From: Candidatus Iainarchaeum sp.
GTDB taxonomy: Archaea > Iainarchaeota > Iainarchaeia > Iainarchaeales > DTGL01
DNA: 33,479 bases
Assembly (NCBI GenBank): GCA_026396995.1
Contig: JAPLVS010000028.1
Span: 1 to 33,479, forward strand
Direction: 5' to 3'
The first letter of the stretch is position 1; every line of letters starts with the position of its first letter. This document shows positions 26,570 through 33,395 of the stretch, in pieces. The translations under genes were made by a program, and so were the position numbers. The notes under the pieces were generated by a model. The model searched no databases. It was not told where the DNA came from and worked only from the letters and a program-made list of their open reading frames with translations.

Positions 26570-29545
26570 TCACCCTTCGCTCTTCGGGCTGTTCTTTTCG
26601 TCTATTTTTTCCTTCAGGTTGAGGCCGATTACGCTGGACTTGTCGTTGTCTAGGGTGACTCCAACAATCTGGTTTGCGCTTTTAATCAGGGAATTGTTGT
26701 GGGTTATCGCCACGAACTGGGAATTCCTGCTTATCTCGCTGATTATCCTTGTGAGCCTTATCGAGTTGGCTTCGTCCAGCGCTGCATCCGATTCGTCGAA
26801 GAAATAAAAGGGTGCTGGGTCGTACTGCTGGATTGCGAAAATGAACGCGAGCGCTGTGAGCGTTTTTTCCCCGCCGCTCATGCTGTCAATATTCTGCAAA
26901 TTTTCGCCCTTGTGCTTTGCCTCTATCACGAGGCCGGCATTCATGGGATTTTCAGGTTCGGTAAGGCTTATCTGGCCGACGCCGTCGAAAAAGTTGTAGA
27001 ACATTTTGGAAAAGTTCTCCCTTATCGCATTGAAACACTGCATGAAGACCTCCTTCCTTTTGACCTCGATTTTCTGTATCATGTCGAGGATTGCATTTCT
27101 TTCCTCCTCCAGCTTGTTCAGTTTTTCCCTGACCTCGAAAATTTCAGCCTTTTCGCTGCCAAGGGATTCCGCGGCCTTGAGGTTCACAGGCCCTATTTTT
27201 TCCAGTTTTCTCTCGGCTTCTGCAAGCTCTTTTTTCAGCTCTTTTACCGACATTCCCTCCAGGGGCCTGAATTCCTTGAACTGCCCGAATTCTTCTTTGA
27301 GGTCCGAGAGCCTTACCTCGAATTTGCCGCTTTCAACCCTGAGTTCCTCCATTTCCCTGGATTTTTTTCTGGAATCAGCTTCAAGCAAGTCTTTTTTCTC
27401 CCTCAGCGCGGCAAGCTTTTTGTCCAGTTCATCTTTCTTTTCCCTTTCGGCCTGCATTTTTTCGGCCTGCTCCCCGCTTTCCTTTTCCAGTTTTTCCAGC
27501 CTTTCACCGAGTTCTGCAGATTTTTTTTCAAAGGATTCGGTTCTTTTCTGCGTTTCTGTGTTTTCGGAATGGATTTTTTCGGTTTCATTGACAGCGCTTT
27601 CTGTTTCCGCTTCAATCCGTGCAAGCGTTTTTTCGCTTATGCTTCTGCTTTCGCTTTCGAGCATTCTCAGGTTGCTTTCGAGCTCGCTTTTCCTGCTGTT
27701 CAGCTCTATTGTTTTCTTGTCAGTCTTGATTGACGAAAGCCTCAGGCTTAGCTCGCTTCTCTTCGCCTTCAGGGATTCAAGGGCTTTTTCGGCTTCCCTT
27801 ATTTTTGCAGCCGCCCCTGTTGTCTCGGTTTTTCCGGCAAGCAGGCTTTTCTGCTTTGCCTCAAGCTCGGCTATCGCGGAAAACTTTTCGTTGAGCACCG
27901 CAATCTCGCTTTCAAGGCTCCGCATCACAGCCTGCTCTTTTTCGAGTTCAATCTTCCTTTTCCTTGCCTCCGCAAGCCCGGATGAAACGCGCTTGATTTC
28001 GAAAAGCGCTTTTTTCTCCTCGCCCCCCTTTTTTTCAACGAGCTGTTTTTTCTTTTGGGCGGAAAGGTCGGAATCGCACACAGGGCATTTCGCTATCTCC
28101 CTGCGCAGTTCCCTGAGCGAAGAATGAATATCGTCGATTTTCGCTTCAAGCGATTTTTCCTCTGAAAGCGCCTTTTCCGCGCTTTTTTCCGCGGCTTCAA
28201 GCGCCTGCGCGATTTTTTTGGATTCCAGCAGGCCGAAGCGCTCCTTGAGCTGTGCGGCCTTTTCCCTGTGGCTTTTCAGCGCCTTCAGCTTTTCCGCTGT
28301 TTCTGCAAGCTCTTTTTCAGCAAGGCTGTTCTGCCTTTCAGCCGCGCTTTTTTCAGACAAAAGCATGGCCAGCTGCTTCTGGTGCCTTTCAATCTCATTG
28401 TCGGTTTCGCCGAGATTTTTTTCCATTGCGCTTATTTCGCTTTCCTTTGCCTTCGAGCCTGCTCCGACCAGGCCGAGTTCGCCTTCCACTTCCTTCAGCT
28501 GCCTTTTGATTGCAGGAATTTCTTCGGCTATCTTGCCGAGCCTCTGCTTTTCAAGCAGGCTTTCTTCCCTGAACGAGGCGAGTTTTTTTGAAAGCGCGTC
28601 CTCGCGCGCGCTGTTTTCGGCAAGCCTCTTTTTTTCATTCGATGCTTTCTCGAGCAGGAGGCTTTTTTCGCCTTTAAGCGATTCTATTTTCGAGATTGTT
28701 TCCCTTAACGATTTTTCCCTTTTCTCGAACAGTTCCTTTTCCTTGGACTGCGCTGTTTTTTCGGTTTCGGAAATGCCCTCCGCTGTTTTCTTTATTTTTT
28801 CATCTATTGAGTCAGCTTCCCCTTTCAGTTTTTTCAGTTTTGCCTGGCCTTCTTCAAGCCCTTTTCCGGCTTCCTCTGATTCGAGCTTCAGGATTGTGGC
28901 CTTCGACCTGTTTTTCGTCTCGACTGTTTTGAGATATTCTTCGGCTGCGCGCTTTTCGTTCTCGAGGATTTCAATCCTTGAAAGGCGCTCGTTCAATACA
29001 AGGGCAGTGTTTTTCACTTTTTCCTCTGCCTTGCCGAGATTTTTTTCAGCCTCCTCCTTTTTCAGGTCGAATTCGCTGATGCCTGCAAGGTCGTCTATTA
29101 TTTCCCTTCTCTGCTCGGGATTCATTTCAATTATCCTTGTGATGTCGCCCTGCGTGACAATGTTGTTGCCGTCGCTTTTCAGGCCGAGCTCGTTAAGGAG
29201 GGAAACAGCCTCGTTCAGGCTTTTTTTCTGGTCGTCGATGCGGCAGGTGCTTTTTCCGGCCTTGTCGATTGTCCTGCTTATGCTCCATTCCCTGTCCTTG
29301 TCCCTTACCACGATTTCGGCTTTGCCGTATGCTTCGCCGGCACTGTTGTTTATGAGGTTTGAAATCCTGCCAGCCCTGAGCGATTTCATCGAGGTTGAGC
29401 CGAGCACAAAGAGGATTGAGTCAAGTATGTTGCTTTTGCCTGAGCCGTTCGGGCCTATTATTGCCGTGAACCCTTTCTTGAAAGGTATGGTGGCTTTCCT
29501 GAAGGACTTGAAGTTTTTGAGCCTGAGTTCTTTCAGTTCGGCCAT
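26570..29545 (-). CDS. SMC-like ATPase with central CPVC zinc-hook motif
   Basis: Walker A IIGPNGSGKSNILDSILFVLG; DLAGISEFD; C-terminal MQCFNAIRENFSKMF, SMSGGEKTLTALAFIFAIQ, FYFFDESDAALD; CPVCDSDL at about residues 487-494 of 991. Confidence 0.9.
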   Translation of the reverse strand: MAELKELRLKNFKSFRKATIPFKKGFTAIIGPNGSGKSNILDSILFVLGSTSMKSLRAGRISNLINNSAGEAYGKAEIVVRDKDREWSISRTIDKAGKSTCRIDDQKKSLNEAVSLLNELGLKSDGNNIVTQGDITRIIEMNPEQRREIIDDLAGISEFDLKKEEAEKNLGKAEEKVKNTALVLNERLSRIEILENEKRAAEEYLKTVETKNRSKATILKLESEEAGKGLEEGQAKLKKLKGEADSIDEKIKKTAEGISETEKTAQSKEKELFEKREKSLRETISKIESLKGEKSLLLEKASNEKKRLAENSAREDALSKKLASFREESLLEKQRLGKIAEEIPAIKRQLKEVEGELGLVGAGSKAKESEISAMEKNLGETDNEIERHQKQLAMLLSEKSAAERQNSLAEKELAETAEKLKALKSHREKAAQLKERFGLLESKKIAQALEAAEKSAEKALSEEKSLEAKIDDIHSSLRELRREIAKCPVCDSDLSAQKKKQLVEKKGGEEKKALFEIKRVSSGLAEARKRKIELEKEQAVMRSLESEIAVLNEKFSAIAELEAKQKSLLAGKTETTGAAAKIREAEKALESLKAKRSELSLRLSSIKTDKKTIELNSRKSELESNLRMLESESRSISEKTLARIEAETESAVNETEKIHSENTETQKRTESFEKKSAELGERLEKLEKESGEQAEKMQAEREKKDELDKKLAALREKKDLLEADSRKKSREMEELRVESGKFEVRLSDLKEEFGQFKEFRPLEGMSVKELKKELAEAERKLEKIGPVNLKAAESLGSEKAEIFEVREKLNKLEEERNAILDMIQKIEVKRKEVFMQCFNAIRENFSKMFYNFFDGVGQISLTEPENPMNAGLVIEAKHKGENLQNIDSMSGGEKTLTALAFIFAIQQYDPAPFYFFDESDAALDEANSIRLTRIISEISRNSQFVAITHNNSLIKSANQIVGVTLDNDKSSVIGLNLKEKIDEKNSPKSEG
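28064..28087 (-). other. Rad50-like zinc-hook motif CPVCDSDL within the SMC-like gene
   Basis: Minus-strand TGCCCTGTGTGCGATTCCGACCTT; residues 487-494 of 991. Confidence 0.85.
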
Positions 29546-29566: not shown

Positions 29567-30421
29567 TCACTTTTTTTCCCTTTTCTTCCAGGGCTCGTGC
29601 CTTTTTGCTTCATTCTGACCGGCTTCGCCGCGGTTGTCAAGGTAGTAAAAGGCAAAGAACAGGGAAGCGAAAGAGAAAACCAGGGAATCGAATATTGCCG
29701 AGACCGCAAAAGAGAGGATGCCTTCGGCGAGCGGCTCAAGAACGAGCAGACCGATGTTGGTTATGATTGCAACCGAGAATATTACAACAGCCAGTGCCAG
29801 CAGGGATTCAAGGAATTTTTTCGAGGTGAACCGCCAGCTTGCGGCAAGCCCTTCCCTGGCGCTGAGGCCGTCGACTGCGATTGCAGGCGCCGCGAAAAGG
29901 AAAAGCTTCAGGAACGAGAAAGCGAAAATTAACAGCGCTAGGCATATGACTGCGCCGCTGATGATGTGCGGCGGGAAGAAGAGCACCATAAGGGACAGGA
30001 GGATGAATGCAAGGAATGCGAAAACCATGCCTGCCAGGACAAGGCTTATCGCCTGCGGGAGCATTGAAAACATGAATTTCAACGAATCTGAAAAAGCGCT
30101 TTTTTCCCTGAACCTCATTGCGTATTTTGAACAGAAAAACATGAGCATTGCCGAGAGAACCGCTGAAAGCAGGAAAATCGCCAGCACAAGCAGGAGAAGG
30201 CCGGCATAGGCTTTTGAAAACAAGGATACGGCTTCAAAAAAGCCAAGCTGCATTCCGCCCTGCGGTATGGCGAAATCATAGACTGCTGCAAGCATCGGGA
30301 CAACCGTCATGTCCGAAAGGAATACCGCGATTATTGCAACAGCAATCCCTGGCAAAAGCACAAACGGGTTTTTCAGGAAAACCGCCAGGGAATTCTTGAA
30401 AGCGTTAATCATACACAACAC
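29567..30421 (-). CDS. Multi-pass membrane protein
   Basis: 284 aa with several hydrophobic segments and a basic C-terminal tail. Confidence 0.75.
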   Translation of the reverse strand: MLCMINAFKNSLAVFLKNPFVLLPGIAVAIIAVFLSDMTVVPMLAAVYDFAIPQGGMQLGFFEAVSLFSKAYAGLLLLVLAIFLLSAVLSAMLMFFCSKYAMRFREKSAFSDSLKFMFSMLPQAISLVLAGMVFAFLAFILLSLMVLFFPPHIISGAVICLALLIFAFSFLKLFLFAAPAIAVDGLSAREGLAASWRFTSKKFLESLLALAVVIFSVAIITNIGLLVLEPLAEGILSFAVSAIFDSLVFSFASLFFAFYYLDNRGEAGQNEAKRHEPWKKREKK

Positions 30422-30505: not shown

Positions 30506-31471
30506 TTATTCCCTTAGCTCGGCCGCGTCGATTTCTCCATCGCTGTCGAGGTCGAGGCCTTCCACGACATGCGCTGTCCTTTTTTCCGAAAACCTGCTGG
30601 CTTTGGCTATTTCCTCAGTGTTCTGGATTACAGAAAGTATGGCCGCCCTTGTGCCGGCATTCCTTTTCCCTGCAATGAACAGTATGGAGCGCGACTCGAA
30701 GAAGGGGTGCCTTATTTTTTCCACTATGCCGATGTTGTCTTCAGTGAATTCCTTGCCTGAATTGGCGCTTTCAATCACCCACTGGGCGTTCTTCTGCCTG
30801 AACGAAACCGAAAGGTGCGGGTTTACCTGCCTGCTAAGGCTGTTGGTTATCGGGCCGCCGATTACGATAAGGTTGGAATTCTCGTCTTTCAGGCTGCGCA
30901 CCATCGTGTCAAGGTAAACCAAAGGGACGCGGCTTTTTTTTGAAAGCGTGCCGAGGAAGCCGGCGAGCTCCACTGCGAGGTGGGCATCCCTGGCCCTTGC
31001 CCTGAATTCGCCGTGCAGGTCAGGCGCCCCGACCACGATTTTCGCATTGAGTTCGCCCCTGCTTATGAACGGCTCGAAAAACGCCTGGATGCTTTTCCCG
31101 AGGCTTTTTTCCTCGCCTGTTATCGCCGAGAAAGCCTCCTTCCTGCCGATTTCATCGAGGGCAGGCACCAATGCAAAGCAGCTGTCCGATGCCGAATAAA
31201 ACTTTGCAAGGCCGCCCTGCCTTTCCTCCTTCTTGGCCACTTTAACAAGGCCCGCCGCCTTCAATTTGTTGATGTAATAATACGCTTCCTGCTGGCCAAG
31301 GCCGAGCTTTTTCGCGATTTCCGCAGGATATGATTCGCGCTTTACAAGCTCCCTGAAAATCAGCCATGCCTTGCTGTTCATAAGCGGCTTGAGCGGTTCG
31401 ATGGAATCCACAAGCCTTGCATTAAGCTTCATCCTTGAGCCGTTTTTTTCGATTACAACAAAAGAATCCAT
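30506..31471 (-). CDS. Winged-HTH (ArsR-like) regulator with C-terminal EF-hand-like loop
   Basis: WLIFRELVKRESYPAEIAKKLGLGQQEAYYYINKLKAAGLVKVAKKEERQGGLAKFYSA wHTH; C-terminus DLDSDGEIDAAE; central NLIVIGGPITN segment. Confidence 0.82.
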   Translation of the reverse strand: MDSFVVIEKNGSRMKLNARLVDSIEPLKPLMNSKAWLIFRELVKRESYPAEIAKKLGLGQQEAYYYINKLKAAGLVKVAKKEERQGGLAKFYSASDSCFALVPALDEIGRKEAFSAITGEEKSLGKSIQAFFEPFISRGELNAKIVVGAPDLHGEFRARARDAHLAVELAGFLGTLSKKSRVPLVYLDTMVRSLKDENSNLIVIGGPITNSLSRQVNPHLSVSFRQKNAQWVIESANSGKEFTEDNIGIVEKIRHPFFESRSILFIAGKRNAGTRAAILSVIQNTEEIAKASRFSEKRTAHVVEGLDLDSDGEIDAAELRE

Positions 31472-31484
31472 GCTATCAACAAAT

Positions 31485-31518
31485 TAATAGTGGTATTAAA
31501 CAATTACTAATACTATTA
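31485..31518. promoter_or_regulatory. Two adjacent TAATA-n-TATTA palindromes, candidate operator
   Basis: TAATAgtggTATTA (31485-31498) and TAATAcTATTA (31508-31518), 14-47 nt upstream of the HTH regulator start. Confidence 0.45.
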
Positions 31519-31573
31519 CGAATCTTTTTTATTCATTTCCTTTGCAGATTATTATCCGCTTCACAGTGGACTG

Positions 31574-31600
31574 CCCGCTTTTTCAGCGGGATTTATAAAA
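31574..31600 (+). promoter_or_regulatory. Hairpin abutting the putative glmS TATA box
   Basis: CCCGC-tttttca-GCGGG directly followed by atttataaaa, 44 nt upstream of ATG 31644. Confidence 0.45.
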
Positions 31601-31643
31601 TGCGGAAGCGGCATCTATATGTTGTTTCATGCTGGTGCTTTGG

Positions 31644-33395
31644 ATGTGCGGGATTATCGGCTTTAAAGGCAAGGGAAATGCCGGAAAAATCATTTTCGAA
31701 GGCCTCAAAAGGCTTGAATACCGCGGCTATGACAGCTGGGGCATCGCGCTCAACAGCGCAGGCCTCGAAATCCTCAGGAAGCCAGGCAAAATAGGTTCGC
31801 TGCCTGCTGCCTTTGAGGGCGGCTCGCTCGGCATCGGGCACACCCGCTGGGCAACCCACGGCGGGGTGAATGAAAAAAACGCCCATCCGCAGCTTTCAAA
31901 CAACCGCAAAATCGCGGTTGTGCACAACGGCATAATCGAGAATTTCCTGGAACTGAAAAAATTCCTTTCCTCGCACGGCTTTTCCTTTGCTTCGGAAACA
32001 GACACCGAAGTCATACCTAATCTCATACAGTTCCATCTGGCCGAAGGGCTTTCCTTCAGGGAGGCAGTCAGGAAAACACTGCTCCAGCTGGACGGCTATT
32101 ATGCGATTGCAGCAGTCCTCGAGGGCAGCGGCACAATCATTGGCGCGCGCAACGGCTCGCCGCTTGTCGCAGGCCTTGGCAGGAACGAATTTTTCATAGC
32201 GAGCGACATTCCGGCTTTCATGCCCCATACCAGGAAAGTGGTGTTTTTGGATGACCGGGAAATAGTTGAACTGGATGATTCCATAAAAGTGTTCAGCGTC
32301 GATTCCGGGCTTGAAATAAAGAAAAAAGTGCAGAGAATGCACTGGAGCATAGAGCAGGTGAAAAAAGGGAATTTCGCGCACTTCATGCTGAAAGAGATAT
32401 CGGAACAGCCTGATGCGATAGAAAAAGCCGCAATGCAGGACCCTGCCCGCCTTAAAAAAATCGCCGGCATCATCGGAAAAGCGGATAATGTTTTTTTTGT
32501 GGGCTGCGGCACAAGCTACCATGCCTGCGTTTCAGCAGAATACGCTTTTTCTGAAATAGCCGGGAAAAGCGTGAAAGCGGTCCTTGCATCCGAATTCGCA
32601 CGGCATATCAAATCCCTTTCGGAAAAAAGCGTTGTGGTTGCGGTATCGCAGAGCGGCGAAACAATAGACCTGCTTGAAACAGTCAGGGCTGCAAAGGAAA
32701 AAAAAGCAAAAATAGTTTCTGTGGTGAATGTTGCAGGCTCTTCGCTTCCAAGGATGAGCGATGAAACGATAATGATGAACTCAGGCCCTGAAATATGCGT
32801 GCTGTCCACAAAAAGCTATACCGCGCAGCTTGCGGTAATGCTCCTTCTCGCTTTTTCGCTCTGCGGCAGGGCTGCAGAAGGAAGGTGCATCATCAGGAAA
32901 GCCGCGGAAAAGGCAGCCGAAACCATAAGGAAAAGCCTGCCTGCTGCAAAAAAACTCGCAAAAAAACTTTCAAAAAAACAGGACATTTTCCTGATAGGCA
33001 GGGGCAATGCCTTTCCAAGCGCGCTCGAGGGCGCGCTCAAGATAAAGGAAGTGAGCTATATCCACGCCGAAGGCTTTGCGGGCGCTGAATTAAAGCACGG
33101 CACGATTGCATTGATTGAAAAAGGCGTTCCTGTAATTGCCTTCATGACAAGCGAAAGCGAAAAACAGATAACAAGCAACGCAATGGAGGTAAAGGCAAGG
33201 GGCGCATTCCTCATAGGGATAGGGGAAAAGAAAAGCGAAATCTTCGATGAATTTTTTGAAATAGGCGGGTGCGACGAGGCAGCGCTCATCCCAAGGATAA
33301 TTCCCGTGCAATTGCTTGCGTATTACCTTGCGCTTGAGCGCCGCTTAGACCCGGACAAGCCGAGGAACCTTGCAAAAAGCGTAACCGTAAAATGA
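31644..33395 (+). CDS. glmS: Glutamine--fructose-6-phosphate aminotransferase (GlmS)
   Basis: MCGIIGFKG Ntn nucleophile, RLEYRGYDSWGIAL, GHTRWATHGGVNEKNAHPQ, SIS domains, C-term LALERRLDPDKPRNLAKSVTVK. Confidence 0.96.
   Translation: MCGIIGFKGKGNAGKIIFEGLKRLEYRGYDSWGIALNSAGLEILRKPGKIGSLPAAFEGGSLGIGHTRWATHGGVNEKNAHPQLSNNRKIAVVHNGIIENFLELKKFLSSHGFSFASETDTEVIPNLIQFHLAEGLSFREAVRKTLLQLDGYYAIAAVLEGSGTIIGARNGSPLVAGLGRNEFFIASDIPAFMPHTRKVVFLDDREIVELDDSIKVFSVDSGLEIKKKVQRMHWSIEQVKKGNFAHFMLKEISEQPDAIEKAAMQDPARLKKIAGIIGKADNVFFVGCGTSYHACVSAEYAFSEIAGKSVKAVLASEFARHIKSLSEKSVVVAVSQSGETIDLLETVRAAKEKKAKIVSVVNVAGSSLPRMSDETIMMNSGPEICVLSTKSYTAQLAVMLLLAFSLCGRAAEGRCIIRKAAEKAAETIRKSLPAAKKLAKKLSKKQDIFLIGRGNAFPSALEGALKIKEVSYIHAEGFAGAELKHGTIALIEKGVPVIAFMTSESEKQITSNAMEVKARGAFLIGIGEKKSEIFDEFFEIGGCDEAALIPRIIPVQLLAYYLALERRLDPDKPRNLAKSVTVK

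Follow-up and report, generated by a model that had tools for sequence, protein, structure and literature searches.

The glmS gene starts amino-sugar production for cell-surface glycans and is the first gene of UDP-GlcNAc synthesis. In bacteria, one form of GlmS control, the glmS ribozyme, acts after transcription. Control of GlmS by GlmZ/RapZ in E. coli is likewise described as post-transcriptional (PMC9841335). The archaeal regulator described here resembles these bacterial systems in that the supply of the same enzyme would be affected, but it is a predicted DNA-binding protein, unrelated to GlmZ/RapZ or to the ribozyme. Archaeal regulators of the TrmB/ArsR/PadR type (e.g. PH1932, PDB 1ULY) have a winged HTH (wHTH) domain in common with the glmS-linked regulator; their effector domain, in contrast, is different. 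Haloarchaeal TrmB was considered as a prior glmS regulator and set aside, the paper checked making no mention of glmS.

Two other described protein elements are relevant to this architecture. The structure 9FSA, from Methanococcus voltae, is of the domain responsible for dimerisation of the S-layer anchor (PMC11410804). Dx[DN]xDG loops held between strands are a setting for which Ca2+ binding has been shown in other proteins; intracellular cases that are neither EF-hands nor calcium blades are rare, and so are archaeal ones (PMC3123361). In a literature search that covered mainly open-access journals, no paper turned up on a glmS-dedicated regulator in archaea or on the same architecture. As a kind of protein, the one-component wHTH regulator is known, and it is the combination of sensor domain, tail and target that is new.

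Domain organisation and spread of the regulator

In the window (the whole 33,479-nt stretch of Candidatus Iainarchaeum sp. DNA that was analysed), the regulator gene lies at 30506..31471 on the minus strand, with an ATG start and a TAA stop. It encodes a 321 aa protein composed of a wHTH, an S-layer-anchor-like domain and a DxDxDGxxD tail, and is present as a single copy in the 1.35 Mb genome (81 contigs). The wHTH (residues about 25-95; 31187..31399, −) was delimited by Pfam HTH_20, by helices in the AlphaFold2 model and by alignment. HTH_20 scored 27.7 bits against a cut-off of 27, and the wHTH crystal structures PH1932, NolR and CzrA also support it. An alignment of 76 sequences contained 24 invariant columns, which include Q61, Y64 and Y65 of the wHTH as well as D307, D311 and D315 near the C-terminus. 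By profile and predicted fold, the protein is a wHTH transcription regulator. It may bind DNA sequence-specifically, and the intergenic regions of its relatives have an enriched motif in common (see below). Membership of the TrmB family was rejected: the TrmB HTH scored 23.4 against a cut-off of 25.6, and the TrmB C-terminal sugar-binding domain was without a match in Pfam.

The middle of the protein is an alpha/beta domain (residues about 138-284; 30620..31060, −) that resembles the S-layer anchor in sequence and predicted fold. S_layer_C (PF05124) scored 47.9 bits against a Pfam cut-off of 23.9 (E 1.6e-12; best stretch residues 177-284) and was matched in 17/17 scanned family members at E<=1. 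The MJ-type S-layer model of NCBIfam, TIGR01564, also scored above its own cut-off. A profile search of solved structures matched 9FSA, and the same structure was the top Foldseek match of the window model, with an E of 1.3e-7 and a TM of 0.69 (by target length). For a second model, made from a distant relative, 9FSA was absent among the 50 matches listed, and so the fold match to 9FSA depends on the model of the window protein and on the sequence profiles. With these matches, two readings in the first-pass annotation were borne out, namely an archaeal winged-HTH regulator and a middle segment reminiscent of S-layer-type proteins. Both models also gave a weaker fold match between the anchor-like domain and BcsB of bacterial cellulose synthase.

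The regulator and the S-layer anchor have the motifs LDTE, N..LI..GGP..N and AG....T in common. The regulator differs in being a predicted cytoplasmic protein fused to a wHTH, without lattice domains and with an extra PDxHG...ARARD segment. Moreover, its anchor-like domain is contiguous, whereas in S-layer proteins the anchor halves are split by the surface region. The extra segment (GxPDxHGxxxARARD, G148-D162; 30986..31030, −) contains a family-specific set of residues, G148, D151, H153, G154 and D162, that was invariant in the 76-sequence alignment. This stretch has lower local confidence in the AlphaFold2 model, and we propose that it may form a ligand loop. We rejected the possibility that the regulator is itself an S-layer protein: it has no signal-like N-terminus by eye, its domain is contiguous and fused to a wHTH, and the true S-layer gene lies elsewhere. 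That gene encodes a 984 aa protein with a signal-like N-terminus and the anchor halves at its two ends (contig C26; L102:2949-5903, −).

When genome contigs were queried with the single protein no relatives were found, whereas an alignment query recovered 186, with one genome per species. The best 80 of these 186 come from records titled Diapherotrites, Micrarchaeota, Aenigmatarchaeota, Woesearchaeota, Nanohaloarchaea, Bathyarchaeota and Odinarchaeota, among others, and the closest named relatives among them are mostly Candidatus Diapherotrites. A few records under other titles, for example Aminicenantes, probably represent mis-binned contigs. Closer to the window's own genome, 18 of 53 relatives carry a homologue (39-63% identity, own copy aside). 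A tail-less query detected the S-layer-like domain, whether or not the full HTH accompanied it and with a few fragments among the matches, in 29/87 genomes of the own phylum, 55/300 of the phylum of a Bathyarchaeum and 53/193 of the phylum of a Woesearchaeote. In the phylum of an Odinarchaeota-titled genome, here called Asgard-like, the domain was found in 16/148 genomes, again with or without the full HTH and with a few fragments. The regulators form an archaea-wide, mostly single-copy family that spans DPANN, Thermoproteota and Asgard-like genomes and is apparently undescribed. One Aenigmatarchaeota-titled genome has a second, divergent copy (L227, G090:C2:881623-882456), with no glm gene in the stretch read.

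Downstream of the regulator in the window are a gene for a 284-aa membrane protein without an NCBIfam match (29567-30421, −) and, after it, an SMC-like gene (26570-29545, −). Elsewhere, too, the regulator is followed downstream by similar membrane proteins, at 7 loci, and by SMC-like genes, at 6 loci. In 13 loci, an archaeal RecJ-family nuclease lies close downstream on the opposite strand (e.g. L049:8120-9655).

The C-terminal calcium-type loop

The last residues encoded by the ORF at 30506-31471 (−) are ...RTAHVVEGLDLDSDGEIDAAELRE, and the loop DLDSDGEIDAAE (residues 307-318; 30518..30553, −), a predicted Ca2+ site, ends three residues before the C-terminus. The strict pattern [GA]xDx[DN]xD[GS]x[VILM]D was present near the end of 176/181 distinct complete relatives, and all 176 have D at loop positions 1, 5 and 9. 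Of the remaining five, four deviate from the pattern at a single position, and in the fifth the disruption is upstream. Since loci L022-L101 had been chosen partly by a pattern that included the loop, its conservation was re-tested with a tail-less query, and DxDxDGxxD was kept in 121/126 of the distinct complete proteins found in this way. In other ORFs of the same loci, the strict pattern had 0 matches in 847,337 residues. Together, these three results show that the loop is not a chance resemblance and that the calcium-type loop noted in the first-pass annotation is conserved. It occurs once per protein, three residues from the C-terminus in 153/176 relatives. Position 12 is variable, with E in 133/176, D in 11/176 and otherwise K, R, Q, V, S or N, such that 43/176 do not have Glu.

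The first-pass annotation had described this loop as a canonical EF-hand, with a paired EF-hand or dockerin fold to be looked for by structure prediction. EF-hands are helix-loop-helix motifs, usually paired, with a 12-residue loop that has D1, D/N3, D/N5, G6, a hydrophobic residue at 8 and E/D12. The window protein has this loop pattern, as do most of its relatives, but the Glu at position 12 is not a constant of the family. In the AlphaFold2 model of the window regulator (mean pLDDT 91.6), the C-terminus (residues 299-319; 30515..30577, −) is predicted to be a strand (299-306), a loop and a second strand (316-319). The model of a distant relative, in which position 12 is Lys, gave the same strand-loop-strand (mean pLDDT 90.9), and flanking helices were absent from both. 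Pfam scores for the window protein were below the cut-offs for EF-hand_5 (15.7 bits; cut-off 25.9) and EF-hand_1 (11.6; cut-off 25.4), and Pfam contained no dockerin match in the regulator. We therefore rejected the EF-hand reading, on the basis of the strand-loop-strand models, the single C-terminal loop, the variable position 12 and the sub-cut-off scores.

In its sequence and modelled surroundings, the loop agrees with the class of Dx[DN]xDG calcium loops held in a strand-loop-strand (Rigden and Galperin; PMC3123361), with which it has in common the ligands D1, D/N3, D5, G6 and D9 between beta strands. It differs in its setting: the protein that carries it is predicted to be a cytoplasmic transcription regulator of archaea, whereas the known examples other than EF-hands and calcium blades are mostly extracellular. 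The predicted Ca2+ at this position is probably structural and not the primary signal.

Five Asgard-like proteins end in KGDLNEENQISG variants, with a degenerate loop, and a sixth ORF, incomplete at one end, looks similar (L258-L263). In a tree, the five proteins formed a fully supported clade on a long branch, which grouped with loop-bearing relatives (support 0.90). This grouping suggests that a fast-evolving Asgard-like clade lost the loop; long-branch attraction could affect the placement. At the five loci of this clade whose flanks are long enough, glmS has kept its divergent place next to the regulator. This arrangement bears on whether the protein is a calcium- or metal-responsive factor, as the first-pass annotation proposed. 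In such a factor, Ca2+ at the C-terminal loop would switch DNA binding, and glmS would be one of the targets because surface glycans or the S-layer would depend on Ca2+. The near-invariance of the loop ligands across phyla would suit such a role, as would the Ca2+ binding of the motif class in other proteins (PMC3123361). However, the single loop is far from the wHTH in sequence and forms a rigid, high-confidence hairpin in the models, and there is no calcium-transport gene among the recurrent neighbours. We consider a calcium-responsive role unlikely and do not favour it, because the clade with the degenerate loop has retained both the gene and its divergent glmS neighbour.

Linkage to glmS and the shared intergenic region

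In the window, glmS lies at 31644..33395 (+) and was identified by TIGR01135 (640 bits; cut-off 418); its start is taken to be the Met of MCGI, in an ORF that opens at 31629. When the neighbours at 183 distinct loci were clustered with no family preselected, a GlmS family headed the list, being present at 123 loci and, in 98 of these, at the divergent −1 position. Neighbour representatives were identified as GlmS, archaeal GlmU and GlmM. Among 177 testable loci, glmS was divergent on the 5′ side of the regulator in 122, within 600 nt in 100, and in another orientation in one case only. At least one of glmS, glmM and glmU was near the regulator in 136/177, and glmM or glmU often takes the divergent place where glmS is absent. 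About 23% of the testable loci, many of them from Woesearchaeota, showed neither glmS nor glmM nor glmU in the stretch read. The glm linkage spans Diapherotrites, other DPANN, Thermoproteota and Asgard-like genomes; in the Asgard-like set glmS was divergent in 14/16 loci, and the other two had no glmS match in the stretch read. Regulators that are pairwise as little as 25% identical have kept the divergent glmS, as have 18 clusters at the 45% identity level. Within the own phylum, glmS was present in 28/29 genomes with the regulator versus 16/58 without it (Fisher p=2.5e-10, with kinship and completeness ignored).

The regulator and glmS are separated by a divergent intergenic region (31472..31643), and the equivalent regions of relatives are enriched in a common motif. 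Motif discovery in 16 Diapherotrites regions returned ACCACTATtA, with a score of 5.1 per sequence versus about 3.0 in dinucleotide shuffles, and 97 regions analysed together gave a related motif, ACCATTA (score 2.84 versus about 0.94 in shuffles). The Diapherotrites matrix, ACCAnTATTA, found 32 sites versus 3.5 in shuffles in Diapherotrites (training set included), and in untrained groups 30 versus 5.9 (other named groups) and 20 versus 6.1 (Thermoproteota), counts that are not independent because the intergenic sequences are related. In the window, the candidate operator is the 14-mer TAATAGTGGTATTA (31485..31498, +), the only exact copy in the genome, with a second, weaker candidate site, TAATACTATTA (31508..31518, +), recognised by eye only. 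The regulator start has many motif sites at a distance of no more than about 50 nt, while other sites are nearer glmS, an arrangement suited to autorepression combined with action on glmS. We slightly favour activation of glmS over its repression. A motif-blind palindrome test was weakly positive (10/97 regions at p<=0.05), and on this result we claim no palindromic operator. Some Thermoproteota regions between glmS and the regulator (e.g. L147, L198, L204) contain long GC-containing inverted repeats, e.g. ACCGCTAACAGGTTTTTTTTAGCGGT, which are possibly lineage-specific operators.

The regulon could be wider if the protein were a general envelope or surface-layer regulator, for which glmS would be one regulon member. 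Its anchor-like domain would then act as a cytoplasmic sensor of S-layer precursors or of lipid-linked glycans. The relationship by homology between sensor domain and S-layer anchor, the presence of the same domain in the genome's S-layer gene and the fact that GlcNAc is a plausible N-glycan precursor are all in line with this. Against it, a genome-wide search with one pattern found near matches at no convincing second or envelope promoter, leaving the exact candidate operator at glmS alone, and the S-layer gene is on another contig. We judge this wider role to be quite improbable. Although gene order can persist by descent and about a quarter of the testable loci are without glm genes nearby, it is very improbable indeed that the glmS linkage is inherited order without regulation, with the protein regulating something else or only itself, given a nearly always divergent linkage at 25-45% identity in several phyla, the frequent replacement of an absent glmS by glmM or glmU, and a regulator whose presence tracks that of glmS.

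Proposed role in UDP-GlcNAc supply

We think it likely that the protein is a cytoplasmic one-component regulator of UDP-GlcNAc synthesis, probably with a structural calcium site; control of glmS and of this pathway had not been raised in the first-pass annotation. In this model, the wHTH would bind the intergenic DNA common to the regulator and the divergent glmS, and binding would set the expression of glmS (in many genomes also of glmM or glmU) together with that of the regulator's own gene. Most likely, the regulator would dimerise through its middle domain, a homologue of the dimeric S-layer anchor. The PDxHG...ARARD segment, gained by the regulator, may sense a pathway metabolite such as GlcN6P or UDP-GlcNAc. 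At the C-terminus, the predicted DxDxDGxxD strand-loop-strand would bind one Ca2+ that fastens the tail, most likely in a structural role. A more ambitious scheme, which seems to us rather improbable, is that of an ancient archaeal regulator whose sensor, akin to the S-layer anchor and of common origin with it, would link both cytosolic Ca2+ and an amino-sugar signal to the supply of surface-glycan precursors by glmS-glmM-glmU.

As a regulator of UDP-GlcNAc synthesis, the family found beside the first gene of this pathway would provide a testable entry to the control of archaeal surface-glycan supply. With this family, a domain of the S-layer-anchor type is found within a predicted cytoplasmic regulator, and the Dx[DN]xDG calcium-type loop, until now described mostly in extracellular proteins, gains a widespread intracellular archaeal example.
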